Positions 181-25,066 of a stretch of 64,000 bases of DNA are shown here, in pieces. Made by a program: the position numbers and the translations under genes. This DNA is from Candidatus Palauibacter scopulicola. GTDB lineage: Bacteria; Gemmatimonadota; Gemmatimonadetes; Palauibacterales; Palauibacteraceae. Every line of letters starts with the position of its first letter. Within the stretch, counting starts at the first letter, position 1. The notes under the pieces are model-generated. The model saw nothing but the letters and a program-made list of their open reading frames with translations. It had not been told where the DNA came from and made no database searches. Location: the NCBI RefSeq assembly GCF_947581915.1, contig NZ_CANPWG010000008.1, forward strand, positions 1-64,000, in the 5' to 3' direction.

Positions 181-560
181 CTAACAGACCTCTTCCAAGA
201 CGTCGGTTTCGAGCCGCAGGCGCAGGACGTCCAAGGCTCCGGACGCCACGACAAGGATTCGACCGCCGGGCCGACGCTGGTCAGAGATACGCGGCACGGT
301 ACCGACGCGGAGCCACGGTAGGCCCCGCAGTTGTCCAGCGGGTTCCCAAGTGCTGGATTCGCTGGATTCATCGGCCTCCGGCTCGCGTCTCATCCAGAAC
401 CAATCCTCGTCTGACGAACTGCACGCCGCGGTCGAAGAACCGTACTACTCGGGGGCGGGGGTCGCGGGGATCTAGTGAGTCGTCCGCGAAGACGGCGTCC
501 GGCATCAACTCGACCGGGATGGCGGTGTCGACCGTGCCCGGCTTCCTGATTAGGACACGC
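181..560 (-). pseudogene. Decayed, chimeric six-bladed beta-propeller remnant
   Basis: The minus strand carries propeller-like pieces that no single frame joins. Near 520-460 it reads LMPDAVFADDSL, matching the start of the propeller at 6181-7239 (LTPDAVFADDSL). It then jumps to VRFFDRGVQFVRR, matching VRLFDRDGRFVRR of the propeller at 3828-4898. Next come DWFWMRR and, in another frame, LDNCGAYRGSASVP, both matching the C-terminal end of the 3828 propeller. The end reads LRLRLETDVLEEVC and stops, again with a terminal Cys. At least one frameshift and a large internal deletion are needed. It is the last member of the propeller array and is almost certainly non-functional. Confidence 0.7.
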
Positions 561-1672
561 TAGGGCCGGCGCGTCGCTCGATCTCGGAATCGAAGCTTCG
601 CCACTCGCCAGGGCGGAAAATCCGTGTCCAGCAGCATGTAGAGGTAGCGGCCCCCGCCCAGGATCCGCGAACGCTCCGGCAGCGGTACGTCCTCATACAG
701 CTTCACGCCTCCATGCCGGTCGTAGATGTCCACGGTCGAGTGCAGGCTGCGCAGGAAGCGGGCGCTGTCATACTGCCCGTGCGTCAGAATGAGGTGGGAA
801 CCCACCGCATCGATGCGGGAGATCGTGTTATATCCCGCCAGCACATTCGAACTCCCTGTGCTGTACTGGCCGGGCGTCAGAGCACCCGGCTCGAATACGG
901 GCACCGGCTTGAACGTCTCGGAAGGCGCGCCGATCTCGCCGACCGAATCGCCCTCGGCGTTGAGGATGGCCATCGGGTATCGGAGAGACGAAGCCACGTA
1001 GATCGAGTCGCCCGCTACCGCAAACGGGAAACCGATCATCGACATCCAGTAGGGTCTTTCGATGGGCACGAACGGCAAGGTGTGAGCGCTCCAGACAACG
1101 CTCTGTCGCTTCACGCGATGCAGCAACAGGGGCTGCCGGAAGAAGCGTGAGGCGTCTTCCGTCCATTCGGAGAGTAGATTCATTCGCACGAGCAGGTCAT
1201 CGCCCAGCGATTCGACCCGCCGCGGAACGCCGGGAAACGCCACCAGGGTATCCGGCCGCAGGTCGCTCGTTAGGTAGGTCAGTCCGGCTTGACCACCGTC
1301 TGCCACGACGACACGCCCTTCGGGCGTCTCGGTGACGCTGCCGATCCGCTGAAACTCGAACGGACCCCGGCCGAACCGCCCGAACGCCGCCTCAAGTCGG
1401 CCGTCTTCGTCATAGCTTCGGATTCTGGGGAGATGACCGTCACTCAGCAGGAAGCCGCCACGCCGTCGTTCCTTCCAGATTCCTGGAATGGAAATGGAGT
1501 CCTGCTGATCTTCCCCCAGCGTGATTACGGTCTCGGTCGCGAATACCTCATCCAGCGTCGTCCGAACCGGCCGTCGATCAGACGTGGCATCGGACATGCA
1601 CGCGACACCCGCGAGGCACGTGATAACGGCGAGAACCCGCAACGTGTATGTACACCGGACGAGCGGAGTCAC
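560..1672 (-). CDS. Six-bladed beta-propeller lipoprotein
   Basis: A 370-residue protein. The N-terminus is a lipoprotein signal ending LAGVAC (lipidated Cys about residue 25), so it should be anchored in the periplasm or outer membrane. The body has blade-like repeats of the NHL/six-bladed type, and FGRFGRGPFEF is a variant of the GRxGEGPGEF motif of the other propellers here. I chose the GTG at 1672 because it overlaps the stop of the preceding small peptide gene (GTGA) and directly precedes the lipoprotein signal; a longer upstream extension would lack any signal sequence. It ends the redoxin - peptide - propeller cassette at 560-2562. The ligand is unknown and no enzymatic residues are recognisable. 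Confidence 0.82.
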   Translation of the reverse strand: MTPLVRCTYTLRVLAVITCLAGVACMSDATSDRRPVRTTLDEVFATETVITLGEDQQDSISIPGIWKERRRGGFLLSDGHLPRIRSYDEDGRLEAAFGRFGRGPFEFQRIGSVTETPEGRVVVADGGQAGLTYLTSDLRPDTLVAFPGVPRRVESLGDDLLVRMNLLSEWTEDASRFFRQPLLLHRVKRQSVVWSAHTLPFVPIERPYWMSMIGFPFAVAGDSIYVASSLRYPMAILNAEGDSVGEIGAPSETFKPVPVFEPGALTPGQYSTGSSNVLAGYNTISRIDAVGSHLILTHGQYDSARFLRSLHSTVDIYDRHGGVKLYEDVPLPERSRILGGGRYLYMLLDTDFPPWRVAKLRFRDRATRRP

Positions 1673-1905
1673 CTCACGACGATGTCCTCGAGACAGCACA
1701 TTTCGAGGGCCGTGTAGCATATGGAGCCCTCGCATACGTGCTCGTAATGGTACCTGAGGTCGACGCATGGCCCCAGACTCTCGATGCACTCTTCCTCTTG
1801 CTGGGCCTCCAGCGAAATCGACTCGATCGCGGTGTGGGTCATCACTAGGATGATCCCCAGCGCGAAAACGATACCGACCCGGACCGATCGCGTGAACAGA
1901 TTCAT
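1669..1905 (-). CDS. Small exported cysteine-rich peptide
   Basis: A 78-residue product with a basic N-terminus and one hydrophobic segment (about residues 8-25) that looks like a signal peptide or anchor. A short tail holds six cysteines (ECIE, PCVD, VCEG, ICYT, MCCL). The ATG at 1905 has a strong GGGAGGAAG ribosome site just upstream. The gene starts 27 bases after the redoxin stop, and its stop overlaps the propeller start by four bases, so the three are probably translated as a unit. No known family is recognised. Its size, signal and Cys content match the peptides at 4892, 7250 and 22113, although the sequences are not obviously alignable. Confidence 0.75.
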   Translation of the reverse strand: MNLFTRSVRVGIVFALGIILVMTHTAIESISLEAQQEEECIESLGPCVDLRYHYEHVCEGSICYTALEMCCLEDIVVR

Positions 1906-1932
1906 TGAACTTCCTCCCGTTTCTGATCCTGC

Positions 1933-2562
1933 CTAAGGACTTAAGCGCTGACTCCGAATGACGTCCGTAGAGAAGACCCCACGCAGGGAACCAACCTGAG
2001 CCTCGAAGCTCCAGCCACACACAGAGGCGTCATCCCTTGCATCGGCCATTATGATGGTTCCGCTGCCATCGATAAGAAGCTTCGTACTAGGCAGTATTGG
2101 TCCGAGTGCCGAGGCTAACTCCCGAGTTGCCGACATGACTGTCGTGCCACGCAGTGCCCGTTGCGCGACCGCGGGCAGCCCTTGGTCTCCGTACAGAACG
2201 ACGTGGCGTTGTAATGACATGTCTTCCGCGAGGGCGTTCCAGGGGCCGACGTTTCCCTCCACGCATGTCCGGCAGCGTTCGACATCAACGATCCAAACCA
2301 GGTGGTCGCCTCCGCTCTCAGCTTCGTCGATCTTCAGGAACGACAACGGCAGCACGGCGCCGACCAAACGGTCCCTCACACTTGATCGCTCCGCGAGTGA
2401 GCCGGTCGCCGCAACCATTACCGCCAGTTCCCGGTGCTGGGAGACCAGCTTCCCGACCCACACGGCACAGCCGACCAAGAGCGCGAGAACGACCGTCTCG
2501 TAGGATCGCTGGCGCAACGTTGCTAGCTTCAAGTGAGTGAATCCCACCCTTCCGATCAGCAA
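1933..2562 (-). CDS. Membrane-anchored thioredoxin-fold protein (CxxC)
   Basis: A protein of about 209 residues with one N-terminal hydrophobic anchor (about residues 22-40). A thioredoxin-like core has the strand LVWIVDV followed by the redox pair CRTC (residues 97-100), and a later strand TKLLIDGSGTII resembles the cis-Pro side of TlpA/redoxin proteins. It probably faces the periplasm and handles disulfides or a redox partner. The start is uncertain: TTG at 2562 is the longest option, and a TTG about ten codons on has a better-placed GGAAGG. It lies 12 bases after a propeller gene and 27 before a Cys-rich peptide gene. That peptide is a plausible substrate by context only. Confidence 0.7.
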   Translation of the reverse strand: MLIGRVGFTHLKLATLRQRSYETVVLALLVGCAVWVGKLVSQHRELAVMVAATGSLAERSSVRDRLVGAVLPLSFLKIDEAESGGDHLVWIVDVERCRTCVEGNVGPWNALAEDMSLQRHVVLYGDQGLPAVAQRALRGTTVMSATRELASALGPILPSTKLLIDGSGTIIMADARDDASVCGWSFEAQVGSLRGVFSTDVIRSQRLSP

Positions 2563-2574
2563 AGGTACTAGCGC

Positions 2575-3648
2575 TTAGCAGCGTCGCGGCTCGACGTTGG
2601 TCTCTAAGCGCAGGCGCAGGATGTACTCGACGCCCAGTGCGTTGGATGCCACGACATGGATGCGGCCGGCGGCGCCAACTTCGGTCATCGACACGTTGTG
2701 CGGCACCGATGCGGAGCCGAGGTACGCACCGCAGTTGTCGAGCAGGTCCCACGTACTGCTTGCACCGGAGCTGGCTTCGCGCCGCAGCCAGAACCAACCC
2801 TCCGGCGAGATGTCCAGTTCCATCCGTTTGGAGCCGGCCTCGCCGGCCAACGACATCGTGCGCAGCGTATCGCCCGTGAACGACAGCTCCCACGCCCGCG
2901 GCTCTTCGATCCCGGCGCCCCACAGTTCGCCGGCGGGCGAGACCGCCCAGGCCGTCTGCGGAGGCTCGTGTTCGTTGAGAGTACCGGTCAGTGTGCCTCG
3001 CCCGATTCGCCGCGTCTGTGGCGGTCCCCGGATGATCCCTCGCGCCTCGATCCGAAGTGTACGCTCGGGTACAAACGCGTACTCGGAATCCGCCGTTCCG
3101 CGTGATAAGTAAACGTGGGTCGAATCGCGCCCGGAAGGCCCCTGCAGGATTTCATACAGGCGACCCCGAGCATCGACTCGGAACACCTTCCCCATGGGTT
3201 CCCTGTTGCCCGGGAGAAAACCCGGTTCCCGCGTTTCACGCGCGTACTCCGCTCCCAGAGAATCCAGCACGAGAAGGTGTAAACCGTCATCGATCCACAG
3301 CCGGGCCCGGTGTGGGTCCCACGTAATCCGTGTCGACACAGCGGCAGGCCAGTACCGCCTCTCACCCGGTCCGTCGCCCTCGGGCGCCAGGCTCCGCACG
3401 AATCGTCCGCCACGGTCGAACAGCCGGACCTCCCTCCACCCTACGTCGGCCACATAGATCCGACCGTGGGCATCGATGGCAAGGTCGTCGATGTTGGCGA
3501 ACACGTCGGGGCCCGACCCGTCGACCCGGCCCAGCCGCAACTCCTCGACCAGCCTCAGTTCGGAGCTCTGCGCGGTCAGCGACCCCGCGCAGAACGCCGA
3601 AACGAGGACCGTGAGGCCTAGACTTTTTCTATGATTTCGCGAGTGCAT
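2575..3648 (-). CDS. Six-bladed beta-propeller, secreted (copy B)
   Basis: 357 residues with a signal peptide ending near AGSLTAQ, so it is exported but lacks a lipobox. Blade-like repeats include DDLAIDAHGRIYVADVG and VRLFDRGGRFVR. The motif EGDGPGER corresponds to the GPGEF motif of the other propellers. It is a close paralogue of the next gene upstream (3828-4898), with the same signal, blade order and C-terminal LDNCGAY and LRLRLET motifs, so the two arose by tandem duplication. The protein ends in a terminal Cys. The ATG at 3648 was chosen because it starts the signal peptide. Function is unknown; such propellers usually bind ligands or partners rather than catalyse. Confidence 0.82.
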   Translation of the reverse strand: MHSRNHRKSLGLTVLVSAFCAGSLTAQSSELRLVEELRLGRVDGSGPDVFANIDDLAIDAHGRIYVADVGWREVRLFDRGGRFVRSLAPEGDGPGERRYWPAAVSTRITWDPHRARLWIDDGLHLLVLDSLGAEYARETREPGFLPGNREPMGKVFRVDARGRLYEILQGPSGRDSTHVYLSRGTADSEYAFVPERTLRIEARGIIRGPPQTRRIGRGTLTGTLNEHEPPQTAWAVSPAGELWGAGIEEPRAWELSFTGDTLRTMSLAGEAGSKRMELDISPEGWFWLRREASSGASSTWDLLDNCGAYLGSASVPHNVSMTEVGAAGRIHVVASNALGVEYILRLRLETNVEPRRC

Positions 3649-3778
3649 GAGTACCGCGCCGAGAAGTACCAAACTCCGCCGCCGAGATGCCAGCAGTCGA
3701 ACCTCGAACACAGAAACCCGGCAAGCTACCACGTTCCGAGGGGTGACGCTGCCGTGCGCGACCCCAACGCGTCAGCCG

Positions 3779-3826
3779 TTAGGCGCGTGCGGACGCCCCG
3801 GTTACCGATGCAAGTTCAGCCGCACA
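3779..3826 (-). other. Possible remnant of a Cys-rich peptide gene
   Basis: Just after the stop of the 3828 propeller the minus strand reads C-A-AELASVTG and then a stop. The same eight residues, AELASVTG, occur in the peptide encoded at 4892-5260, also preceded by Cys-Ala. This could be the relic of a second peptide gene lost between the duplicated propellers. The match is short and could be chance. Confidence 0.25.
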
Positions 3827-3827
3827 A

Positions 3828-4898
3828 CTAGCAGACCTTTTGCACGACGTCCGTTTCGAGCCGCAGGCGCAGGATGTATTCGAAGTCCAAGGCCCCGGAC
3901 GCCACGACATGGATGCGGCCATCCGACCCGACCTTGGTCAGAGCCACACGGTGCGGTACCGATGCGAAGCCGCGGTACGCGCCGCAGTTGTCCAAGAGAT
4001 CCCAGGTACTGGTTGCATCGGAGTCGGGCTGCCGCCGGATCCAGAACCAACCCTCCGGCGAGACGTCCAATTCCGCCCACTCGGTTTCGCCCGCTGCTCC
4101 TGCGGGCAAGATCGTGCGTAGCGTGTCACCCGCAAATGACAGCTGTTGCAGGCGTCTTTCGTTGATGCTTCCCACCCACAACTCACCGCCGGGGGACACC
4201 GCCCCGACGGTCTTCGGAGCTTCTGTCCGCGTGACAACCACCGTCACTGAACCAGCGCCGGTAGTGCTGGTTCGTGGTACACCCTCGCTATCGGCTGCCG
4301 CTTCGACCACGAGCATGGCGTCATGTGTGATCGCGTACTCCGAATCGACCGTACCGCGCGCGGCGTAGCGGTACGTCGAATCCCGGTTCGGAGATGGACC
4401 CCACAGGAACTGGTACAGGCGACCCTGCGGATCCACTCCGACCACCGTACCAACGGGCGCCGTGTTGGGCGGGACGAAACTCGGTGCCCGAACCTCGCGC
4501 GCATACTCGGTTCCCAGCGAATCGAGCACCAGGCGCTGCAGTCCATCATCGATCCACAGCCGATCCCTGTGCGCGTCCCATGTGGCCCGAGTCGACCCGA
4601 TGTTCCAGTATTGCCTTTCTCCGGGTCCCCCACCCTCGGGTGCGAGCCGTCTGACGAATCGCCCGTCGCGGTCGAAGAGCCGTACCTCCTTCCAACCCAC
4701 GTCCACCACGTAGATCCGGCCTTCGGGATCGACCGCGAGGTCATGGATGTCCGCAAACACGTCGGGGCCAGATCCTTGGATCCGGCCCAAACGTAGCTCC
4801 TCCGCCAAGTGCATTTCGGCGTTCTGCGCGGCCAGCGACCCCGCGCAGAGCACCGAAACGAGAACCGTGACGGCCGCAAGCCGAGACTCCCCTACCAT
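3828..4898 (-). CDS. Six-bladed beta-propeller, secreted (copy C)
   Basis: About 356 residues with a signal peptide ending near AGSLAAQ. Blade repeats include HDLAVDPEGRIYVVDVG and VRLFDRDGRFVRRLAPEG, and GGGPGER stands at the position of the GPGEF motif. It is paralogous to copy B over its whole length and likewise ends in a terminal Cys (VVQKVC). The ATG at 4898 overlaps the end of the upstream peptide gene by seven bases; an ATG at 4922 is also possible. The 179-base gap to copy B is unusually long for this array and may hold a decayed peptide gene. No function can be assigned from sequence. Confidence 0.82.
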   Translation of the reverse strand: MVGESRLAAVTVLVSVLCAGSLAAQNAEMHLAEELRLGRIQGSGPDVFADIHDLAVDPEGRIYVVDVGWKEVRLFDRDGRFVRRLAPEGGGPGERQYWNIGSTRATWDAHRDRLWIDDGLQRLVLDSLGTEYAREVRAPSFVPPNTAPVGTVVGVDPQGRLYQFLWGPSPNRDSTYRYAARGTVDSEYAITHDAMLVVEAAADSEGVPRTSTTGAGSVTVVVTRTEAPKTVGAVSPGGELWVGSINERRLQQLSFAGDTLRTILPAGAAGETEWAELDVSPEGWFWIRRQPDSDATSTWDLLDNCGAYRGFASVPHRVALTKVGSDGRIHVVASGALDFEYILRLRLETDVVQKVC

Positions 4899-5260
4899 GT
4901 GTTGGAGGGTGGTACTTTGCATGAGACCCGCGCACTGTAGCTCCAGTATCCACCTCCCAGATAAAAGCAGTTGATTTCAAGTTCATCAACGATTTGGCCG
5001 TGTTGCCAACATTCCCATCCCGCGTCCAGCGCCGCAGCCGCCACAACTTCGTCAGGGCACATCGAGATACCCAGCGACATCGTAGCCCCAACCTCGCCCG
5101 TCACGCTCGCCAACTCGGCACAAGCCGCTGGCGCAGCGGTTTCCAGCGTCAGGGCCGCGTATGGCGCGTCCGCTTCGGGAGTCTCGGTCGCCTCGAGTGG
5201 TGCGGCAATCAGCAGCGCCAGCGCCACGATCCCGGTACTGACCTTCGTGCGATTCAGCAT
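4892..5260 (-). CDS. Exported cysteine-containing peptide (longest of four)
   Basis: 122 residues. A basic N-terminus and hydrophobic stretch form a clear signal peptide (cleavage near LEATE). The mature part has five cysteines: ACAE, MCPD, ECWQ, NCFY and SCKV. The ATG at 5260 follows a GGAGACAGG ribosome site. The gene overlaps the propeller that follows it. A nested palindrome at 5345-5376 lies upstream and is probably its operator or promoter region. I do not recognise the family. The wide Cys spacing and the length suggest a small folded domain, not a very short modified peptide. Confidence 0.72.
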   Translation of the reverse strand: MLNRTKVSTGIVALALLIAAPLEATETPEADAPYAALTLETAAPAACAELASVTGEVGATMSLGISMCPDEVVAAAALDAGWECWQHGQIVDELEINCFYLGGGYWSYSARVSCKVPPSNTW

Positions 5261-5344
5261 CGTCCTGTCTCCGTGTAAGGGACATTTGATCCGTGAATCA
5301 CCTATGCTATTGACTGACTCTTCGGCCACAAATCTCCGGATAGA

Positions 5345-5376
5345 TGACATCTGATCGGATGTCAGTCAATCAGATG
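5345..5376. promoter_or_regulatory. Nested palindrome, putative operator
   Basis: Two overlapping inverted repeats: TGACATC at 5345-5351 with GATGTCA at 5358-5364 (6-base spacer), and CATCTGAT at 5348-5355 with ATCAGATG at 5369-5376. The site lies between the HTH regulator gene and the peptide gene it precedes. It could bind that regulator, but this is inferred from position and symmetry only. Confidence 0.4.
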
Positions 5377-5414
5377 ACGGCGGCGTCAAACGCAGATTCC
5401 GATGAGGTCGCGTG

Positions 5415-5732
5415 TCAAGCGTTACTAAGGGAGGCGTGCAGGCCGTGCAAAACACGACCCTCCAGGAACTCAAAGAAGACGAAGGTCATGAGCTCACCGC
5501 GACTCTTCACGCCAAGCTTACGGTAGAGGCGACCCAGATAGGTGTGGATCGTGGACGGAGCCAGGTCCAAACGGCGAGCGATCTCGGGCTCGGAAAGGTC
5601 GTCGAAGACGAGCCGGACGATCTCCGCCTCGCGGCGAGAGAGCCCGAGGCGCTTGACGAGGACGTACCATTCCTCGTCTCGGAACAGCCTTGAGCCTTGA
5701 CCCCGGGGCGGCGGTATCGGTTCCTGTGTCAT
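5415..5732 (-). CDS. Small LuxR-type HTH protein
   Basis: 105 residues, almost only a C-terminal LuxR/GerE helix-turn-helix: LSRREAEIVRLVFDDLSEPE, then IARRLDLAPSTIHTYLGRLY and RKLGVKSRGEL. There is no receiver, autoinducer or PAS domain, so it is either a minimal DNA-binding protein or relies on another protein for input. The ATG at 5732 has an AAGGAG site. It lies inside the minus-strand propeller array, between a propeller/99-residue gene pair and the peptide gene at 4892, and is a good candidate local regulator. A small hairpin (CCGCC/GGCGG, 5758-5773) precedes it. Confidence 0.8.
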   Translation of the reverse strand: MTQEPIPPPRGQGSRLFRDEEWYVLVKRLGLSRREAEIVRLVFDDLSEPEIARRLDLAPSTIHTYLGRLYRKLGVKSRGELMTFVFFEFLEGRVLHGLHASLSNA

Positions 5733-5884
5733 CTCTCTCCTTAGCGGTGCGGGTAATCCGCCTGTTGTGGCGGGTGTAGCTCCGGCTGATGCACGAGTTG
5801 CCGCAAGCTTTGGCCATGGTGCACGCAACCGTCCTGCCCGGTCGCTTGCGACGGCGGGTCGTGGCGGCTCCGGGGCAGGCGGCT

Positions 5885-6184
5885 TCAATCCCGTTTTCCG
5901 GCGGCGCTGACCAGGAGCTGGGAGAATTCGGTGACGGCCACCTTGAGCTGATCCACGAAGGCTTCCCGTTCCTCGGACGAGTAACAGCTGAGCGCCTGCT
6001 CGAAGTTCGGGATCTGCGATACGAAGGCATCGACTGCGGCTTCGTCGATGCCTTCGCCGAGCCGGCGGAGGGTCGCCTTCATCTTCTGCTTCTGCGACGA
6101 AGTCGCCGACTTGTAGAGTTCGACGAAGGTCAGCTCGAACGCGAGCCAGTCCAGCCAGTCGGCGTAGGAGATACCCGTCTTCAT
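5885..6184 (-). CDS. Hypothetical 99-residue helical protein
   Basis: 99 residues with no signal peptide or membrane segment. It looks entirely helical (ISYADWLDWLAFELTFVELY, then EEREAFVDQLKVAVTEFSQL) with a single Cys. The ATG at 6184 overlaps the stop of the upstream propeller gene (ATGA), so the two are translationally coupled. No family is recognised. Being cytoplasmic while its coupled neighbour is an exported lipoprotein, it may act in regulation or assembly. Confidence 0.6.
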   Translation of the reverse strand: MKTGISYADWLDWLAFELTFVELYKSATSSQKQKMKATLRRLGEGIDEAAVDAFVSQIPNFEQALSCYSSEEREAFVDQLKVAVTEFSQLLVSAAGKRD

Positions 6185-7239
6185 TGCTTGAACTCCGGGA
6201 GCCGGAAGCGGCCGATCCACGGCGTGGGCTCGAGTCCGCTCGCGTAGAGCCACGTGTCGGAGACGTCGATGGCGATGGCCTCCGCGGCGCGGTCGAGGCG
6301 TAGCGTCTTCACGTATGCGCCGTCCCAGGTGTAGACCTGTACCTCCTGTGACGCCCAGACGGGTCCGTCCTCATCCACTCTCCGTCCCGAGAAGACGCCG
6401 TACAGGTAGCGTTGCGTAGCGGCCAGGTCCGTGAAGCCGTAACGCGTCTCCGGGCTGATGGCCATGACGCCCCGCCCGTTGCTCGATTTTCCCTGGGCCC
6501 ACGCGGGCTGGAAGGGATCGGGCACCGCCGCCCGGGCGATCGGAACGCCGTCACGGTCGAAGATCTCGAGCAGCCCGCCGAGAAGCGTCGCGGCGGCCAG
6601 ACGCTCCCCCTCGGGATCCGCCACGACCCAGCTCTCGTAGGCCTGCGGGAGCGTCGTTCCCGGCGCCTCCGCCACGTTGGGCGGGAAACCCAGGATGGTG
6701 CGGTCGTAGCTCCGGTCCGCGTGGTAGCGACCGATACGACCCTCCGTGATCCATCCGCCGGCGAACCACGTCCCGTCGGAGGCGCGCACGAGCGCACCGG
6801 CGATCGGGCCGTTCAGCGGGACGGTTTCGGGGTTCACTTCCGCACCCGCTTCAATCTCCGGCAGGGACAACCGCGTGAGGCGCTGATGGATGCCATCGAG
6901 GATCCAGACCTCGTCGGGCGATGCCGCAGCCCCGATCACGACCTGCTCCGGGTCCTTGAACTCGCCCGGCCCGTCGCCCTGGCGGCCGTAGGAACCGAGG
7001 CGCCCCGGTGTCTCGAGATCGACGACGTGAACCGACGGCTCCAGCATCGCGTCCAGCGCCACCACGCGGTCCCCGGCCAACCCGATCTCGACGATCCACC
7101 CCAGCGAGTCGTCCGCGAACACGGCGTCCGGCGTCAACTCGGCAGGGCTGTCGGCGTCGATCGTGGCCGGCTCCGCCTGACGACAGGCGCCGACCGCCAG
7201 AACCGCGGCGACCGACACCCCGATCGCTGACCGCCTCAC
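6181..7239 (-). CDS. Six-bladed beta-propeller lipoprotein (copy D)
   Basis: 352 residues. The lipoprotein signal ends AVGAC (Cys about residue 19). The body carries propeller repeats, with YGRQGDGPGEFKDPEQV as the family motif. The early segment LTPDAVFADDSLG is shared with the remnant at 181-560. I chose the GTG at 7239 because GGAG lies five bases upstream and it leads straight into the lipoprotein signal. It follows the Cys-rich peptide at 7250-7459 by ten bases and overlaps the 99-residue gene downstream. Function is unknown; extracytoplasmic ligand or partner binding is likely. Confidence 0.82.
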   Translation of the reverse strand: MRRSAIGVSVAAVLAVGACRQAEPATIDADSPAELTPDAVFADDSLGWIVEIGLAGDRVVALDAMLEPSVHVVDLETPGRLGSYGRQGDGPGEFKDPEQVVIGAAASPDEVWILDGIHQRLTRLSLPEIEAGAEVNPETVPLNGPIAGALVRASDGTWFAGGWITEGRIGRYHADRSYDRTILGFPPNVAEAPGTTLPQAYESWVVADPEGERLAAATLLGGLLEIFDRDGVPIARAAVPDPFQPAWAQGKSSNGRGVMAISPETRYGFTDLAATQRYLYGVFSGRRVDEDGPVWASQEVQVYTWDGAYVKTLRLDRAAEAIAIDVSDTWLYASGLEPTPWIGRFRLPEFKQ

Positions 7240-7249
7240 CGCGACTCCG

Positions 7250-7459
7250 CTAAGGCTCAACACAGCGCGGTTTGCGGTTTCTCTCCTGCATATCCGGACA
7301 GATGCAGTCCATCTTGGATATGCTGCCGCACCCCTCTTGCGTACACGACGCGGCGGACAACCCAAGACGGGCGGGGGCATCCGCATCTGCCGTGACGGGA
7401 ACGACCGCCACGATCGCCGCGAACGCTGCCGTGGCCAAGAAACGTTTCAAGCTCATCAT
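7250..7459 (-). CDS. Small exported cysteine-rich peptide
   Basis: 69 residues. The signal peptide spans about residues 1-27 (ending near TADADA). The mature part of about 42 residues has five cysteines, SCTQEGC, DCIC and RCVEP. The double ATG at the start has GGAGGG just upstream. It lies 27 bases after the anti-sigma/redoxin fusion and ten bases before a propeller lipoprotein gene, the same order as the cassettes at 560-2562 and 20955-22949. The family is unknown; it could be a disulfide-rich effector, signal or adhesin subunit. Confidence 0.74.
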   Translation of the reverse strand: MMSLKRFLATAAFAAIVAVVPVTADADAPARLGLSAASCTQEGCGSISKMDCICPDMQERNRKPRCVEP

Positions 7460-7486
7460 CTTCCCTCCAGAATCGAGTGTTGCCGG

Positions 7487-9658
7487 CTATCTGACCGACG
7501 CCCGAGGATGATCTTCCAACATGAGTGCGATACGGAGCGCGGGTGCGAGAGCCTCCCCGCGATATCGCAGGGTGCCGCCGCGGTCCACGACGAAGAACTG
7601 CACCTCCCTCCAGGCACCGAGGGCTTCCCAGACTTCGGATCGCCTGTCATGGAGGAAGGGGGGTAGCTCAGGAGTGCCGCCCTCAGCGGCGGGCTGATCC
7701 TCGTCCCGAGAATCAGGATTGACCGTGACCAGCAACGCTCGCGCGTCAGCCGCCGCCAGTTTCGGACCATTGGCCCTCAGCAGATCCAGGGTCTCCTCGG
7801 AGACGTAGCTGGGTCGAAGGGACTGGATGATCAGCGTTACGTCGCCACCGGTCACTTCGTGCAACGCCCTCTCTTCTCCAGAGGCAGTTTCGAGCGTGGC
7901 GCCCACGTTGACCCATTCATCGAGCAGTGACGATGACAGATGCTCCCGCCATGCCGCGCGGGCTACAGCCAAACGGGCCTCGGTCGGAGCGGTCACCCAG
8001 TCTTCTCCTTCGGGCCCGTAGGGTTCGAGCGGGATGACGGGGTCGGCCTGCGCGAGCGCCAGCAATTGGGCCGCGCGAGTCGAAGAGCCGGTCTCCGCGT
8101 GGAACCTTGCCAACTCCACGAACACACGGGGATCCCAGCTGAGTTCGGCGGCGCGCTCGAAGGCATCGAGCGCCCCTGCCCGGTCCCCTCGAGCCATCCG
8201 CAGCCGTCCTAGGAGCACATGCAGGCGGGCCAGACTTTCGGCGGCCTCCGCCTCGAAGTTGGCTCGCGTCCCGGCGAGCGGCCGATCCCGGCCGAGCCAG
8301 TCCGGCCGCCCGTTCAACTGTTGCAGGATCCACTCCTCGGCGATCGCCCCAAGAGCCGATACTTCAACCATGCGTTCCGTCACTTCGACATCGAGCCGGG
8401 TGTCTCGAATCACGGCGTCGGCTGCGTACCTCTCGAGCCAGACTCGGGTAAGTGCCGGATCGGCGACCTCATAGGAGAGCTGCAGCCCGACCTGGGCTAC
8501 TGAGGGCATCGGTGCGAGCGTCCAACTCCGGTCCAGCGCATCGATCTTTTCGGCATGCGACGTCGCCGACAGCAGGATGGTCTCGAGGCGAGCCTGCGAC
8601 GCGTACTCGTGCCGGGGATGTTCGGCGGTCAGCTCGCTCCGCCAATAGGCCTCGATACCCTCCCGGCCGAGGAGGCGGGCGTAGAGGCTCAGCGCGTGCA
8701 TCTCGCCCGCCCCGGGGTCCCTTGGCCGAGCGGCCGCGTCCATCCGTTTAAGGCGTTCCAGGTGCGCGGTTGGCGGCATCTCACCGGAGTCCTCGGGCAG
8801 GGCACCTCGACCATACAGGAGGAGGGCTGCCCATAGCTCGGGGCGCTCGGGGTACTCCGACAGCGCCTGTTCGGTCACCGCGACGGCCCTCGCGGGGCTC
8901 AGGTCCGCGGTGGCCAGCACCTGGTACAGGCGGGCGTCGAGCGTCGATCGGCCGTCCGCGTCCGTCTCGAGATACTCCCAGGACCGGCCGAAGTCGCTGT
9001 CGATGTAGTCTCCGTCCAGGTCTTCGACGGCGGCGGCCGCGTACACGGCGCCGGGGGGCAGATCGACGGTTCCGGAGAAGACGCCGGGGTCATCCCGGGA
9101 GAGTTCGACCACGCGGTATCCAGGTTCGGTTTGCGCGAAGCGGAGCGAGTCGGGCACCCAGTATCGCAGCCGCGCCCGGACGCCGGGTTCCGCCGCGAGC
9201 GGCGAAATCGTCTCGTACCGGAGCGTGAGCGCGCCCGGCTCCTCACCGTGGAACCGCAGGGTGCTCGCGCCCGCCATGGCCCGCTCGGGCCCGACCGTCA
9301 ACAGGAGAACCGCCGCGATCACGGCCAGCATGAGGGCCCCCGCCGAGACCGTCAGGGCTCGGGAGCCCGCAACCCGTCTCCGGGAGAACCCTGCCGGCTC
9401 CGCCTGTGCAAGGGCGAACGGGATGAGGGCGGCACTGCCCGCTTCCGCGGGGAAGATCTCTTCGAACAGTCCATCGGGCGGCTTCGGCGTCGGGAGGGTC
9501 CGTATCGCGGCACTCAACTCGCGAATGAGCCGGACCTCGCGTCGACAGACCGCGCACGAACGAAGGTGTTCCCGCACGGCAGCGGCATGCGGTTCGGGCA
9601 GCTCCCCGTCCGCGTAGCGGTTCAGCGTCCACTCGTCGATCTGCGTGCAGAACTCCAT
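7487..9658 (-). CDS. Anti-sigma factor fused to TPRs and a redoxin-like domain
   Basis: 723 residues. It opens with a zinc-finger anti-sigma domain (H31, C35, C38 in HLRSCAVC), then a single membrane segment at about 103-122. The extracytoplasmic part has a beta-rich domain (about 130-250), helical TPR-like repeats (about 270-560) and a C-terminal thioredoxin-like fold (about 600-720: DVTLIIQSL, ARALLVTVN, REVQFFVVDRGGTLRYRGE). The usual CxxC is absent from this last domain. The ATG at 9658 starts the zinc finger, 11 bases after the ECF sigma stop. It should hold the sigma factor at the membrane, with the large outer part sensing a periplasmic state. The redoxin-like tail sits immediately before a Cys-rich peptide gene, where separate redoxin genes sit in the other cassettes. 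Confidence 0.8.
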   Translation of the reverse strand: MEFCTQIDEWTLNRYADGELPEPHAAAVREHLRSCAVCRREVRLIRELSAAIRTLPTPKPPDGLFEEIFPAEAGSAALIPFALAQAEPAGFSRRRVAGSRALTVSAGALMLAVIAAVLLLTVGPERAMAGASTLRFHGEEPGALTLRYETISPLAAEPGVRARLRYWVPDSLRFAQTEPGYRVVELSRDDPGVFSGTVDLPPGAVYAAAAVEDLDGDYIDSDFGRSWEYLETDADGRSTLDARLYQVLATADLSPARAVAVTEQALSEYPERPELWAALLLYGRGALPEDSGEMPPTAHLERLKRMDAAARPRDPGAGEMHALSLYARLLGREGIEAYWRSELTAEHPRHEYASQARLETILLSATSHAEKIDALDRSWTLAPMPSVAQVGLQLSYEVADPALTRVWLERYAADAVIRDTRLDVEVTERMVEVSALGAIAEEWILQQLNGRPDWLGRDRPLAGTRANFEAEAAESLARLHVLLGRLRMARGDRAGALDAFERAAELSWDPRVFVELARFHAETGSSTRAAQLLALAQADPVIPLEPYGPEGEDWVTAPTEARLAVARAAWREHLSSSLLDEWVNVGATLETASGEERALHEVTGGDVTLIIQSLRPSYVSEETLDLLRANGPKLAAADARALLVTVNPDSRDEDQPAAEGGTPELPPFLHDRRSEVWEALGAWREVQFFVVDRGGTLRYRGEALAPALRIALMLEDHPRASVR

Positions 9659-9669
9659 CTTGCTGCTCC

Positions 9670-10203
9670 CTACCGCTCGAACAGTTCGGCGCGAAGCTGC
9701 TTCCGCGCCTTGTACAACCGGCCCTGGGAGGTCGAGCGCTCGATCTGGAGAAGCTCGGCGATCTCGCGGTGCGAATACCCCTCGATCTCTTTGAGGACGA
9801 CGACCGTCCGCCGTTCCTCCGTGAGCGAAGACAGCGCGCGCTCCAGTGCGATCGAATCCAGGATGGGGGATTCCGGCGACGCGACGACGTCCCCTTCGTC
9901 GGGCGCCAAGGCGGTGGTAATCTCGTGTCGTCTCCCCTCCGACCGGACGTGTTGGAGCGCGGTGCGGGCCGTCACGGAACGCAGCCACGGGCCCAGCGGC
10001 CGCTTGCCATCGAAGCGCCGAAGCAGCTCGGGAAGGTCGGCAAGGACATCGTGCATCACGTCCCGAGCATCGGCGGACGACTCCGTCAAGCGGTACGCCA
10101 CGGCGAACAACTGCTCCGAGTACTCCTCGTACAAGGCGTGCAACGCGCGGCGATCGCCGCGCGCCGCTCTGCGCGACAATCGCCGCTCCTGGGCCACCGT
10201 CAT
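9670..10203 (-). CDS. ECF (sigma-70 family) RNA polymerase sigma factor
   Basis: 177 residues. Region 2 covers about 14-80 (YEEYSEQLFAVAYRLTESSA, DARDVMHDVLADLP), and region 4 about 120-170 (LTEERRTVVVLKEIEGYSHR, EIAELLQIERSTSQGRLYKA). There is no region 1 or 3, as in ECF factors. The ATG at 10203 is preferred; a TTG one codon earlier is possible. Its partner anti-sigma gene follows after 11 bases. It is the first gene of the minus-strand run that continues through the peptide and propeller genes, and is therefore the likely transcriptional driver of that array. Confidence 0.88.
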   Translation of the reverse strand: MTVAQERRLSRRAARGDRRALHALYEEYSEQLFAVAYRLTESSADARDVMHDVLADLPELLRRFDGKRPLGPWLRSVTARTALQHVRSEGRRHEITTALAPDEGDVVASPESPILDSIALERALSSLTEERRTVVVLKEIEGYSHREIAELLQIERSTSQGRLYKARKQLRAELFER

Positions 10204-10325
10204 CAAACCGCGCCACCTCGCGCAGCCAGACCTGCTTTCTTGCCCCTGTCCACGGAGAATCTCTTTCTCGTCGTCGGGCCCCTGCGCCGGGGCCGATGGA
10301 GCCGGCGTGAATCCTCCCCCTACAT

Positions 10326-10331
10326 CTTATA
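10326..10331 (-). promoter_or_regulatory. Possible -10 element before the sigma factor gene
   Basis: TATAAG on the minus strand lies about 120 bases before the sigma gene, in otherwise GC-rich DNA. No good -35 hexamer is seen at 17 bases, so the element may belong to a promoter of another sigma class. Confidence 0.3.
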
Positions 10332-10412
10332 TGCCTCCCAAGGGCAAAACTTCGTTCGGGTCGTGCGGGCAACCTTCATGGACGTGAGCTGTTAACGAGT
10401 ATTTTGGAATCG

Positions 10413-10436
10413 ATAACTAGTGTGTTGACAATTTAT
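10413..10436 (+). promoter_or_regulatory. Second copy of the vapBC operator-like sequence
   Basis: The plus strand reads ATAACTAG, two other bases, then TGTTGAC and an A/T-rich tail. It is close to the sequence in front of vapB at 23056-23080 (ATAACTAG, ATTGTTGAC, then TTTAT). It is an AT-rich island in GC-rich DNA, with no toxin-antitoxin gene beside it. The second palindrome arm is degenerate. It could be a relic or a distant target of the antitoxin. Confidence 0.35.
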
Positions 10437-10566
10437 TACAGATATGATTTTCTCAAAAACGATCATCGGAAATCGGAAGGCGCTCGCTGCCGTTGACCCT
10501 CTGACAATGACGGACCAACTCGACGTGTCGGCAGCGCTCACTGGCTCCCGCGGTGTGACGCACGGC

Positions 10567-10627
10567 GGCCTGCCCCGAGCCAACGGGGCAGGCCAGCCGT
10601 ACGCTTCGCGTGGCTCCCCAGGGAGCC
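10567..10627 (-). other. Two strong hairpins, possible structured leader RNA
   Basis: A perfect 11-bp stem, GGCCTGCCCCG (10567-10577) with CGGGGCAGGCC (10584-10594) and a 6-base loop, extends by a further CGGC/GCCG pairing. A second stem pairs GGCTCCC and GGGAGCC at 10612-10627. No T-tract follows on either strand, so this is not a standard terminator. On the minus strand it follows a 13-codon ORF and precedes the sigma factor gene, which suggests an attenuator or structured RNA. Confidence 0.4.
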
Positions 10628-10642
10628 GTCGTTCGGGCGGGC

Positions 10643-10684
10643 CTAACCGAGACGGATCACGCCGCGGACGTGGTCGGGTCGCAT
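10643..10684 (-). CDS. Possible 13-residue leader peptide
   Basis: ATG at 10684 with AAGGAG six bases upstream encodes MRPDHVRGVIRLG and a stop. The ideal ribosome site and the hairpins just downstream suggest a leader ORF coupled to attenuation. The rest of 10204-10787 holds no convincing gene. Evidence is position and ribosome site only. Confidence 0.35.
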   Translation of the reverse strand: MRPDHVRGVIRLG

Positions 10685-10787
10685 GTTTTTCTCCTTTGAG
10701 GCTTGTCGTTCGTCACCGAAAGCGCACCAGAAAACGGCGCTCCCGGTAACACAAACGCCTCCGGCTCAAAAAACCTTACATCGCGCC

Positions 10788-11822
10788 CTACTTCGTCCAG
10801 ATCACGATGGCGCCGCAGCGTGTGTCGGAGCCGCCGAACTCGGCCGGAAGCGATGCCGGCCCCTTGTATATCTCGACTCCCGCGACCTCCACCGGAAGGA
10901 CGAGAGTGTGGAGGGGTGCATCGGTCACATCGACATTGTCGAGGAACGTCTTGATTCTGCAGCCGCCCCCTGAAAACCCGGCCGACAATCTCGTGCTGTA
11001 GAACCTACCGTCTCGTCCCAGCCTGATTCCCGACATGTCGGCGATCATGTGGCTGATGCGCTGCGGTCGCCGACGCTCGATGTCGGCTTCGGTGAAGAAC
11101 GTGCCTCCGCTCACGAGTTCACCCCACAGCTTTCGCTCGTAGAACCCCTTGATCTCCAGGCGGCGAGATCTCGTCACGGTCGCCACGAGCGGCTCCATTT
11201 CGACCGGCGTCGGCGCGAGCCCGATCTCCACTTCCGTGGTGAGCCCGCGCGTCACCGTCACGGCGTGGCCAAGCGACGCGTAGCCGATGTGTCCTACCTC
11301 CAGTTCATGCTGCCCCTCGGGGACGGCGGACAGAACGAACCTGCCGCGCCGGTTGCTCTGGGCCTGCCTGCCCCGACCCCGGACGGATACGGCGGCCGTG
11401 GCCACGGCATCGCCGGTCACGCCATCGTATACCCGGCCGATGATCCGCCCCGCGCGGACCGTACCGATGAGGACCCGGAGTTCCACCTCATGTACGTCTC
11501 CGGGTTCGAAGGCAACGACGGCCTGCTCACTCGACCCGTCCCCCAACTCGGCCCACAGCGTCGCCTCTCGCGCGTCACGGGGGGCGCATAGGAAGAAACG
11601 GCCCTGGGGATCGGCGGCTTCGCGCACCGGCCTGCGCCTCGCCTCGTTCCAGCGGAGCACCACGGTGGCCCCGGGCAGGGCGACCGTCCCGGATTCGTCC
11701 AGGACCGCGACGCGAAGCGCAGCCCGGTCGCCACACTCCTCCCCGTCCTGTCCGGCCGCCGGAGGCACGGCGACCGCCAGCAGGGATACCACCGCGATCG
11801 TCATCGGTGCCACGCGAGTCAT
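10788..11822 (-). CDS. Carboxypeptidase-regulatory / plug-only protein
   Basis: About 344 residues with a signal peptide (ending PPAAGQ). A first Ig-like domain covers about 30-130. A second carboxypeptidase-regulatory-like domain covers about 140-215 (GRIIGRVYDGVTGDAVATA, GRFVLSAVPEGQHELEVGHI). The C-terminal region is like the plug of TonB-dependent receptors (FFTEADIERR, VEVAGVEIYKGPASLPAEFG, CGAIVIWTK). The 22-strand barrel is absent, so it is not a receptor by itself. It lies 29 bases after a full-length paralogue. The start is uncertain: the ATG at 11822 has GGAG immediately adjacent, and an ATG at 11804 is possible. It is probably a periplasmic or outer-membrane partner protein. Confidence 0.72.
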   Translation of the reverse strand: MTRVAPMTIAVVSLLAVAVPPAAGQDGEECGDRAALRVAVLDESGTVALPGATVVLRWNEARRRPVREAADPQGRFFLCAPRDAREATLWAELGDGSSEQAVVAFEPGDVHEVELRVLIGTVRAGRIIGRVYDGVTGDAVATAAVSVRGRGRQAQSNRRGRFVLSAVPEGQHELEVGHIGYASLGHAVTVTRGLTTEVEIGLAPTPVEMEPLVATVTRSRRLEIKGFYERKLWGELVSGGTFFTEADIERRRPQRISHMIADMSGIRLGRDGRFYSTRLSAGFSGGGCRIKTFLDNVDVTDAPLHTLVLPVEVAGVEIYKGPASLPAEFGGSDTRCGAIVIWTK

Positions 11823-11851
11823 CTCCAGTCCATGGGCAATGCTCGCCACGT

Positions 11852-12865
11852 CTACTTGGTCCACACGACGACGGCGCCACACCGGCTGGCGAACTCGGCC
11901 GGCGTACTCGCCAGCCCCTTGTAAACCTCGATCCCTCCAACCTCTATCGGCTTCACGTACAAGTCCAGATTGCGCCCGACCGCGAAACCGTCCAGGTACA
12001 CGGCCATGCGGCAGGTCCGATTCAATCCCGAAGAGCCTCTCCGATTCAGCATCCCTGGCGCAACGCTCGGGACCAGCATGCTGACAAGATCGCTGACTCG
12101 AAGGGGGCGCCAGCGTTCGATGTCCTCTTCGGTAATGAACGTTCCGAGGCCGAGCAGTTCACCCCAGTGCTTTCTCTCGTAGAAGCCCTTGATCTCCAGG
12201 CGACGAGGCCTCTCCACGGTGACCACGAGCGGTGCCAGTTCCACGGGATCCGTGGACAGACCGATCTCGACCTCGGTGGTGATCCCCGGCCTGACCGAGA
12301 CCGCATGCGTGAGCGGAGCGTAGCCGATGTGCCGGACCGAGAGTTCGTGCGATCCGACGGGTACCCCGCTCAGGACGAAGCGGCCCATGCGGTTGCTGGT
12401 GACCACCGCGGCCCGGTCCGGGACGGAGACCTCGGCGGCAGCCACGGGTCGGTGGGTCCTCCCGTCGAGCACCTGACCAACCAGGCGGCCCGTCTCCACG
12501 TCATCGAGCAGCAGCCGGAGTTCCACGTCGTGCCTCGACCCCGGCACGATGACGACCAGCCGTTCCGTGCTCGAAGCGTCCCCCAGTTCCGCCCACAGCA
12601 CCGCTTCTGTCGCCTCCGCAGGGGCGCAGAGCAGAAGGAGGCCCTCCGCCCCGGCCGTTTCTCGCAGCGCCATCTCCTCGACGTCGGACCAGTGGACCAC
12701 GAGCGTGGCGCCGGGGATCGGGATGTTGCCGGACTCGTCGACGACCGTCACCTGAAGCGAAGGCCGGTCGCGGCAACCGTCCTCCTGCCCCAGGACCGGG
12801 CCGGTCGGAACGGCGGCGAGGATGAAGAAGAGGGGAACGACAGCTGCTGGTCTCGCTTCGACCAT
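11852..12865 (-). CDS. Carboxypeptidase-regulatory / plug-only protein (paralogue)
   Basis: About 337 residues, with the same layout as the gene at 10788-11822: signal peptide ending VLGQ, two Ig/carboxypeptidase-regulatory domains (PIPGATLVVHW; GRLVGQVLDGRTHRPVAAAE), and a plug-like end (FITEEDIERWRPLRVSDLV, IEVGGIEVYKGLASTPAEFA, CGAVVVWTK). The pair arose by tandem duplication. The signature LEIKGFYERK occurs in both. No barrel domain follows. The ATG at 12865 was chosen because it leads into the signal peptide. No ribosome site stands out. Confidence 0.72.
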   Translation of the reverse strand: MVEARPAAVVPLFFILAAVPTGPVLGQEDGCRDRPSLQVTVVDESGNIPIPGATLVVHWSDVEEMALRETAGAEGLLLLCAPAEATEAVLWAELGDASSTERLVVIVPGSRHDVELRLLLDDVETGRLVGQVLDGRTHRPVAAAEVSVPDRAAVVTSNRMGRFVLSGVPVGSHELSVRHIGYAPLTHAVSVRPGITTEVEIGLSTDPVELAPLVVTVERPRRLEIKGFYERKHWGELLGLGTFITEEDIERWRPLRVSDLVSMLVPSVAPGMLNRRGSSGLNRTCRMAVYLDGFAVGRNLDLYVKPIEVGGIEVYKGLASTPAEFASRCGAVVVWTK

Positions 12866-13002
12866 GGGCCACACTCTCTGCGCGGGTTCGCCCTGCTCCA
12901 CGATGCAGCGTACGGCTCCCGGACTGCACGGATCGGAAGAACGTCACATTCGTGTCGGAAGACGCCAGCCATGTAAGACGTTCGCCAGTCCCAACACCCC
13001 CC

Positions 13003-20954: not shown

Positions 20955-22103
20955 TTACCCTCCGGGCCGTGTGCTCATCCAGTCGCAATCCTCGTCCGAG
21001 ACCAGGTACATCAAGATCCAGGTCTGAAGCTTCTCCGACTCGTCGATTCGCCGGTCCAGGACGAATAGCGTATCGCCCCTGAAGGTCTCCATCGGTCGAA
21101 TGTCGAAGTCGTGCGGCACGAGGGTGTCCACACACGCTTGTGAGAGGTCTGGCGAGAGGATCCCGACCCAGGTCTTGGCGGTGAGCACCGGCATCGGTTC
21201 CATCTTCAGTGCCGTCTGGTCGTGGTGGGTGAACAGGAAACCGCCGCCGGGACGTGGGAATAGTTGCCGGAGTTGCGAACTTTCCTCCAACTGCTCGCGG
21301 TACGGGATATGCTCGATGTCGATGCGTTCCCGGAGGTCGGCCGGGACCCCCTTCCGCCTCGCCACCGGGATATCCAGCGTGTCCACCACCTCGCCCCGCA
21401 GGTTCAAGACGAACATCTCGTCCAGCCCGGACCAGCCCTGCACGAACCGTCCGTCGGCGTACGCAAGAGAACCGATACTAAAAAGGCTCGCATAGGACCA
21501 GTTGTCGGTGCTGAGCGACGCGACGTATTCCCGGGGGAGTCCGCCCATGCTCGTGAATTCGTCCGTGGCCGGCCGCCAACGAGTCAGCGATGTTTCGCGC
21601 TGGAGTTCGAAATCCGTCATCCAGACGTCCTGGCCGATCACCACCGGGGGCGTGATTCCGCCCAGCGCGGGAAAGTCCACAACCCGAATGGTCTCTCCGG
21701 TGTTTCGGTCGAAGACGTTCACTCGCCGCGACCCTGTGGTCTGGGCGGCTACGGTCGAATCGTCGATGAGCATCGGAGCTCCGGGCCCGCCGCGAAACTC
21801 TCCCGGCCCCTCTCCCGGCCGTCCGTACACAAGCATCAAACTGCCGTCTCTGCGGAACCGGAGGACCCGTGCCGAAAAGATGTCCGATATGTAGAAGGAC
21901 CCGTCGAGGGGGTCGACGACCAGAGCGTATGGGTTGCCGATGTACAGCGTGTCGCCTTCCGGCAGCAGAAGGCTGTCGACGGCAGTGAGGGTTGGCCCCG
22001 CCGCGTCCCCAGTCACGCGTTCGCCGGACTCGGAGCCGCAGCCCGTGATCAGGAACATGCCACCGGCGAACAACGCGACGCCGACACGACGGGACCAGCC
22101 CAC
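20955..22103 (-). CDS. Six-bladed beta-propeller lipoprotein (copy Q1)
   Basis: 382 residues. Lipoprotein signal ends ITGC (Cys 22). Propeller repeats include YIGNPYALVVDPLDGSFYIS and YGRPGEGPGEFRGG, the family motif. The GTG at 22103 has AAGGGA nine bases upstream, and the Cys-rich peptide gene ends nine bases before it. Downstream, 20954-21248 is identical over 295 bp to 23917-24211 in the second copy, covering the C-terminal part of the protein, while the rest differs at scattered sites. It is the last gene of the redoxin - peptide - propeller cassette. The C-terminal region holds two Cys (SQACVDT, DEDCDWM). Confidence 0.85.
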   Translation of the reverse strand: MGWSRRVGVALFAGGMFLITGCGSESGERVTGDAAGPTLTAVDSLLLPEGDTLYIGNPYALVVDPLDGSFYISDIFSARVLRFRRDGSLMLVYGRPGEGPGEFRGGPGAPMLIDDSTVAAQTTGSRRVNVFDRNTGETIRVVDFPALGGITPPVVIGQDVWMTDFELQRETSLTRWRPATDEFTSMGGLPREYVASLSTDNWSYASLFSIGSLAYADGRFVQGWSGLDEMFVLNLRGEVVDTLDIPVARRKGVPADLRERIDIEHIPYREQLEESSQLRQLFPRPGGGFLFTHHDQTALKMEPMPVLTAKTWVGILSPDLSQACVDTLVPHDFDIRPMETFRGDTLFVLDRRIDESEKLQTWILMYLVSDEDCDWMSTRPGG

Positions 22104-23917: not shown

Positions 23918-25066
23918 TTACCCTCCGGGCCGTGTGCTCATCCAGTCGCAATCCTCGTCCGAGACCAGGTACATCAAGATCCAGGTCTGAAGCTTCTCCG
24001 ACTCGTCGATTCGCCGGTCCAGGACGAATAGCGTATCGCCCCTGAAGGTCTCCATCGGTCGAATGTCGAAGTCGTGCGGCACGAGGGTGTCCACACACGC
24101 TTGTGAGAGGTCTGGCGAGAGGATCCCGACCCAGGTCTTGGCGGTGAGCACCGGCATCGGTTCCATCTTCAGTGCCGTCTGGTCGTGGTGGGTGAACAGG
24201 AAACCGCCGCCCGGCCGCGGGAAAAGTTGGCGCAGTCGCGAACTCTCCTCCAACTGCTCGCGGTACGGGATGCGCTCGATGTCGATGCGTTCCCTGAGGT
24301 CGGCCGGAACGCCCTTCCTCCGCGCCACCGGGATGTCCAGCGTGTCCACCACCTCGCCCCGCAGGTTCAAGACGAACATCTCGTCTAGTCCGGACCTGCC
24401 CTGCACGAACCGTCCGTCGGCGTACGCAAGAGAACTGATCGAAAAAAGAGTCGCATAGGACCAGTTGCCGCTCTTGATGGACGCAACGTACTGCTCCGGG
24501 AGTCCGCCCATACTCGCGAATTCGTCCGTGGCCGGTCGCCAACGAGTCAGCGATGTTTCGCGCTGGAGCTCGAAATCCGTCATCCAGACGTCCTGGCCGA
24601 TCACCACCGGGGGAGTGATTCCGCCCAGCGCGGGAAAGTCCACAACTCGAATGGTCTCTCCGGTGTTTCGGTCGAAGATGTTCACTCGTCGCGAGCTTGT
24701 AACCTGTGCGGCTACGGTCGAGTCGTCGAGCACCATCGGAACCCCTGGGCCGCCGCGAAACTCTCCCGGCCCCTCTCCCGGCCGTCCGTACACGAGCATC
24801 AGACTGCCGTCTCTGCGGAACCGGAGGACCCGTGCCGAAAAGATGTCCGATATGTAGAAGGACCCGTCGAGGGGGTCGACGACCAGAGCGTATGGGTTGC
24901 CGATGTACAGCGTGTCGCCTTCCGGCAGTAGAATACTGTCGACGGCAGTGAGCGTCGGTCCCGCCGTGCCTGCGGTCACGGGTTCACCGGACTCGGAGCC
25001 GCAGCCCGGGATCAGGAACATCCCGCCGGCGAACAACGCGACGCCGACACGACGGAACCAGCCCAC
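23918..25066 (-). CDS. Six-bladed beta-propeller lipoprotein (copy Q2)
   Basis: 382 residues, nearly the same as copy Q1 (20955-22103): same lipoprotein signal (IPGC), same YGRPGEGPGEF motif and identical C-terminal part. Differences cluster in the middle, for example VASIKSGNWSYATLF against VASLSTDNWSYASLF. The GTG at 25066 follows an AAGGGGGG site. Unlike Q1 it has no Cys-rich peptide or redoxin gene in front; the thioesterase gene ends 10 bases upstream. The 295-bp identical 3' tract suggests recent gene conversion or a young duplication between the copies. Confidence 0.85.
   Translation of the reverse strand: MGWFRRVGVALFAGGMFLIPGCGSESGEPVTAGTAGPTLTAVDSILLPEGDTLYIGNPYALVVDPLDGSFYISDIFSARVLRFRRDGSLMLVYGRPGEGPGEFRGGPGVPMVLDDSTVAAQVTSSRRVNIFDRNTGETIRVVDFPALGGITPPVVIGQDVWMTDFELQRETSLTRWRPATDEFASMGGLPEQYVASIKSGNWSYATLFSISSLAYADGRFVQGRSGLDEMFVLNLRGEVVDTLDIPVARRKGVPADLRERIDIERIPYREQLEESSRLRQLFPRPGGGFLFTHHDQTALKMEPMPVLTAKTWVGILSPDLSQACVDTLVPHDFDIRPMETFRGDTLFVLDRRIDESEKLQTWILMYLVSDEDCDWMSTRPGG

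Follow-up and report, generated by a model that had tools for sequence, protein, structure and literature searches.

A sigma/anti-sigma pair with a cysteine-free ectodomain ending in a thioredoxin fold adjoins a Cys-rich peptide and a propeller in Candidatus Palauibacter

The DNA analyzed here, a 64,000-nucleotide stretch referred to throughout as the window, belongs to Candidatus Palauibacter, a genus of marine, sponge-associated Gemmatimonadota (PMC10469786). Four genes on its minus strand encode, in this order, an ECF sigma factor, an anti-sigma factor, a small Cys-rich peptide and a propeller. The features of the locus are as follows:

10317–10352, minus strand: promoter-like element AAGTTTTGCCCTTGGGAGGCATATAAGATGTAGGGG, 36 bp, about 150 bp upstream of the sigma start
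9670–10203, minus strand: ECF sigma factor, 177 aa (Sigma70_r2, Sigma70_r4_2, TIGR02937)
7487–9658, minus strand: anti-sigma factor, 723 aa, single-pass membrane protein
9545–9568, minus strand: zinc anti-sigma (ZAS) motif of that protein, H31-x3-C35-x2-C38, cytosolic (zf-HC2)
9293–9349, minus strand: membrane span, residues 104–122, the sole hydropathy peak in the protein
8969–9262, minus strand: beta-sandwich domain, residues 133–230 (AlphaFold2 strands)
8045–8941, minus strand: helical TPR-like solenoid, residues 240–538 (TPR_14; AlphaFold2 helices; Foldseek TPR matches)
7508–7981, minus strand: TlpA/ResA-like thioredoxin-fold domain, residues 560–717, without active-site Cys or cis-Pro
7250–7459, minus strand: Cys-rich secreted peptide, 69 aa, 27 nt past the anti-sigma stop
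6181–7239, minus strand: TolB-like six-bladed propeller (PF15869, E = 2.5e-15) with a lipoprotein-type N-terminus, the lipobox recognized by eye
5885–6184, minus strand: 99-aa protein of no assigned function, overlapping the propeller stop, found in the genus only
5415–5732, minus strand: stand-alone LuxR-type HTH protein, found in the genus only, with 5732 as the called start

The product of 10203–9670 matches Sigma70_r2 (E = 5.5e-12) and Sigma70_r4_2 (E = 1.2e-14) in Pfam and scores 91.1 bits with TIGR02937 (cut-off 42.9). It contains sigma regions 2 and 4 and no region 3, the arrangement of an ECF sigma factor, for which about 180 aa are expected. The anti-sigma gene follows after a gap of 11 nt, and its product has a zf-HC2 match at residues 12–39 (E = 3.4e-8, 33.9 bits vs. 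a Pfam cut-off of 22.2), within which C35 and C38 never vary among 20 homologues and H31 is kept in at least 90% of them. The N-terminal H-x3-C-x2-C motif and the adjoining ECF sigma gene place the protein among the ZAS anti-sigma factors, as both the motif and the gene position directly after an ECF sigma gene are shared with RsrA, ChrR and their membrane relatives; its scores lie under the RsrA, ChrR and generic anti-sigma cut-offs of NCBIfam. The single-pass form is shared with membrane-bound ZAS relatives, but unlike these the window protein has a very large ectodomain with beta-sandwich, TPR-like and thioredoxin-fold parts. From motif and gene order, the anti-sigma factor is predicted to bind the sigma factor.

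The anti-sigma protein family is widespread in Gemmatimonadota, the phylum covered by our homologue searches (together with one close-relative scan beyond it, and with genes in relatives called by a simple codon-score script). The sigma/anti-sigma pairing is kept across the phylum, and wherever upstream sequence sufficed, the zinc-bearing form was always preceded by a sigma gene.

The ectodomain comprises roughly 600 residues, probably positioned outside the cytoplasm, and across most of the genus it retains at least 45% identity. In a full-length AlphaFold2 model (20 homologues, mean pLDDT 80), residues 240–538 form a long, all-helical solenoid, within which a single TPR_14 match barely exceeds the Pfam cut-off (24.0 vs. 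23.5 bits); the beta-sandwich domain (residues 133–230) has no Pfam match. The C-terminal domain, taken as a single sequence, gave a sub-threshold AhpC-TSA match in Pfam (E = 0.0098). Modelled alone with 53 homologues, it adopts a thioredoxin fold (mean pLDDT 89), for which TlpA structures are the best Foldseek matches (E = 4e-8, TM-scores about 0.6), and a profile of the 53-member family retrieves ResA/TlpA-type thioredoxins from the PDB (best E = 8.5e-23). A first-pass annotation of this DNA had proposed an ECF sigma factor paired with an anti-sigma factor, and had read the latter as a zinc finger, one membrane span, a TPR region and a terminal thioredoxin-like domain. The sigma-region matches and the adjacent zf-HC2 protein confirm the pair, and the whole 723-aa layout holds, including the thioredoxin fold on which that reading had been staked beforehand, now recovered by AlphaFold2, Foldseek and PDB profile matches alike.

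This fold is shared, by profile and structure matches, with the TlpA/ResA periplasmic thiol-disulfide oxidoreductases, but unlike them the window domain is part of an anti-sigma factor and has neither CxxC nor cis-Pro, nor any cysteine elsewhere in the ectodomain. The CxxC position aligns to S-Y-V-S and the cis-Pro position is Val. The only cysteines of the protein are C4, C35 and C38, all of which precede the membrane span, with none beyond residue 38. Thiol chemistry by the window ectodomain is therefore impossible, and non-covalent recognition alone remains. The domain had been described in the first-pass annotation as Cys-less, which proves an understatement, since the entire ectodomain is free of cysteine and the cis-Pro is also gone. 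The accompanying suggestion that it might sense a redox partner fails for thiol exchange on the same count, and ectodomain redox sensing is rejected for the window protein, with its zero ectodomain cysteines.

The active site was read across the phylum from an alignment of the C-terminal domains of 53 homologues. Among the 39 that are sigma-linked, 19 retain one active-site Cys, 19 retain none and a single protein has CxxC; the one-Cys forms (CxxS/A type) mostly resemble WSRxCGPS or WSPxCGPA. The 19 sigma-linked proteins that are Cys-less all come from the window's family, and in 17 of these, among them the window protein, the cis-proline is gone as well. The 14 homologues that are not visibly sigma-linked divide into six with CxxC, seven that keep a single Cys and one Cys-less protein (L121, counted here with its N-terminal region masked in the record), and secreted homologues without sigma linkage include CxxC forms. 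L121, the sole Cys-less protein outside the family, also sits at a peptide–propeller locus. In the homologue tree, one branch (support 93/85, not decisive) can separate the family's Cys-less proteins, which is compatible with a single Cys loss in the window's family, although the deep branches and root are weak and the tree does not settle the number of losses. An enzyme fold thus appears to lose its active site within an anti-sigma factor while CxxS/A intermediates persist in related families, and the survival of these intermediates makes the enzyme-to-sensor step testable.

The peptide and propeller genes downstream are separated by 10 nt. A dN/dS of 0.10–0.41 indicates purifying selection on the Cys-rich peptide, and the Cys-rich peptides match no known family in Pfam or NCBIfam. 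Within the window's family, the four-gene order is shared by genera whose anti-sigma factors are only about 28% identical, and a propeller comes after the anti-sigma gene in nearly all family loci. A peptide fitting a common pattern lies at most 500 nt past the anti-sigma end at 18 of the 20 family loci with sequence to inspect, vs. 3 of 388 control gene ends, a contrast somewhat flattered by derivation of the pattern from these same peptides; two family loci, L038 and L045, have no pattern peptide. Outside the family, such a peptide near the anti-sigma end also occurs at one locus (L094), and about 20 sampled sigma-linked loci have none nearby, suggesting that the anti-sigma architecture works there without a peptide. 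At L093 and L121 the peptide–propeller pair is convergent to the anti-sigma gene yet still adjoins it, indicating that adjacency outlasted rearrangement; this convergent layout comes from another family. At L159 the anti-sigma gene is followed first by the propeller and then by the peptide. In a survey of the class, the strongest propeller matches lay nearly all on contigs that carry the anti-sigma gene. The link between the anti-sigma factor and the peptide system, proposed at the outset, is upheld by this gene order, kept with peptide and propeller across divergent genera and in other families.

That proposal had extended sigma control to the whole array at 181–7459, and here it holds in part. 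The first peptide and propeller (7459–6181) lie in the conserved unit, but the rest of the array (181–5350) is not kept with the sigma gene and has no upstream element before its genes; the element occurs only before sigma, and the later genes are variable. Genes past the propeller vary within the genus, where the LuxR-type protein is matched by GerE on a longer ORF, 5415–5888 (E = 1.7e-14 in Pfam), and unrelated genes, e.g. M16 peptidases, follow the propeller in other genera of the family. One such genus has an M16-peptidase-like gene pair directly after the propeller (L041:3638–5454, L039:2–1860, L043:73–2732), the first gene of which is confirmed by Pfam in L041.

The common form of the 36-bp element starts with AAGTTTTGCCC and ends with TGTAGAGG. 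It stands at the same distance from sigma in nine Palauibacter loci and is absent elsewhere among the loci scanned, and the family's other genera have a different sequence upstream of sigma. The window holds no second copy, and in the genome itself the sole other match to the 19-nt left half differs from it at three positions; on these two observations, a repeated upstream element was rejected as the means of controlling the whole array. The element may be a sigma-dependent promoter, in which case the regulon may extend little further than the operon itself. The inside of the operon shows no sigma-70-type promoter, terminator-like sites there occur at chance level with none convincing, and no known RNA element was found in 5000–11000. 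The element also includes an inverted repeat, TGCCCTTGGGAGGCA (10334–10352), which could be a site for another regulator. Further upstream, 10788–12901 encodes tandem carboxypeptidase-regulatory and TonB-plug-like proteins of about 350 aa, by eye apparently without a barrel; within the genus, these plug-like proteins form a family that is repeated ahead of sigma.

Two other cassettes of the window, at 22829–20955 and 2547–560, consist of a CxxC protein, a small Cys-rich secreted peptide and a propeller, in that order. The anti-sigma gene had been said to occupy the position of separate redoxin genes in such cassettes; the layout agrees, but at the sequence level both CxxC proteins are only weakly recognizable as redoxins. 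When the called genes of the window were searched, the 22829–22368 protein showed a weak redoxin likeness (E = 2.4e-5) and the 2547–1933 protein no significant redoxin match, and Pfam gives no match for 22829–22368 or for the ORF 2562–1933. At L156 and L164, a DsbA-like thioredoxin gene follows the peptide and propeller (Pfam E = 3.5e-26 and 1.5e-17), which associates the cassette with disulfide proteins and supports the view of the anti-sigma factor as the occupant of a slot that usually goes to a thiol-disulfide protein. These two peptide–propeller pairs (L156:4579–6122, L164:4592–6156) occur in other families without an anti-sigma gene, and are possibly representatives of a phylum-wide, undescribed cassette type. 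Within the window, the propellers at 20955–22058 and 23918–25021 look like near copies from their N-terminal sequence. Gene sets of Bacteroidota combine a peptide (e.g. NVEALA), a six-bladed propeller and a thioredoxin-like gene; their layout resembles that of the window cassettes, but the window peptides match no family and the likeness is one of layout alone.

The best reading of the locus, which we hold with moderate confidence, is that the anti-sigma factor is a binding sensor that controls its own peptide–propeller operon. The cytosolic zinc domain would keep the ECF sigma factor inactive, and the membrane span would link it to an ectodomain ending in a catalytically dead TlpA-type fold; this ectodomain would be a sensor that binds, rather than an enzyme that performs redox chemistry. 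Relatives that keep the anti-sigma gene beside peptide and propeller suggest that these are sensed by binding; the ectodomain would most likely recognize the downstream Cys-rich peptide and/or the propeller, or their folding state, and the peptide or propeller may accordingly be the sensor input. Binding, or its loss, would free the sigma factor, probably through conformational change or intramembrane proteolysis. Release of either kind is conceivable, and the single span is compatible with regulated proteolysis of the RseA type. Once free, the sigma factor would direct transcription from the conserved upstream element through all four genes of the operon that encodes it, and peptide–propeller output would thereby come under feedback control.

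The main rival, to which we give an appreciable but distinctly less than even chance, holds that peptide and propeller are merely outputs of the sigma factor, and that the ectodomain, RseA-like, senses envelope stress, misfolded proteins or another ligand. Membership in the sigma operon would be enough to account for the linkage, and the full ectodomain is present at the roughly 20 sampled sigma-linked loci of other families that have no peptide or propeller. However, the pair at L093 and L121 adjoins the anti-sigma gene though convergent to it and hence outside the sigma operon, and no Cys-less protein occurs other than at peptide-linked loci or among close relatives of these. Both the convergent loci and the limits of full Cys loss, which does not extend past the peptide-linked lineage, favor peptide or propeller as inputs without proving that role.

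Two further accounts place the signal elsewhere. A thiol switch of the RsrA kind at the cytosolic zinc motif, with the ectodomain only a tether or tuner, draws on the presence of the ZAS motif, on weak RsrA and ChrR profile matches (18.9 and 20.9 bits) and on the cytosolic location of the protein's sole cysteines; we regard it as very improbable, as 18.9 bits does not reach the RsrA cut-off of 62.5, the only extra cysteine, C4, is absent from most divergent homologues, and 600 residues of ectodomain, conserved to this degree across most of the genus, would be superfluous for a simple thiol switch. Slighter still is the chance of FecR-like surface signaling, with the TonB-plug-domain proteins upstream of sigma (10788–12901) as the signal source. 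Plug-type proteins do lie immediately upstream of sigma at many loci of the genus, but the plug genes form a repeated family, they are absent from the loci of other genera, and no FecR match appears in Pfam at E ≤ 1, on which ground FecR-type signaling was rejected.

A more far-reaching form of the binding-sensor reading is possible, and we advance it only tentatively: a pseudo-thioredoxin derived from a disulfide oxidoreductase module would have become an anti-sigma receptor that reads the state or amount of the co-encoded Cys-rich peptide without thiol chemistry, giving a transcription circuit dedicated to the peptide. The binding sensor would offer a transcriptional handle on uncharacterized Cys-rich peptide–propeller cassettes in a phylum that is widespread and of which very few members are in culture.

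A limited literature search found no anti-sigma factor with a redoxin domain. TPRs are known from ECF42 sigma factors, whose C-terminal TPR extensions regulate the sigma factor, as proposed via protein interaction (PMC8999054). In ECF42 the TPRs are fused to the sigma factor itself, whereas those of the window lie on the part of a membrane anti-sigma factor predicted to be on the far side. The RseA-type topology consists of a cytosolic anti-sigma domain, one span and a sensor ectodomain; the window anti-sigma factor has the same topology, but its ectodomain is unrelated. L087:7360–7875 is the only sigma-linked homologue with CxxC (LTRFCRDC), and would be a useful experimental contrast.
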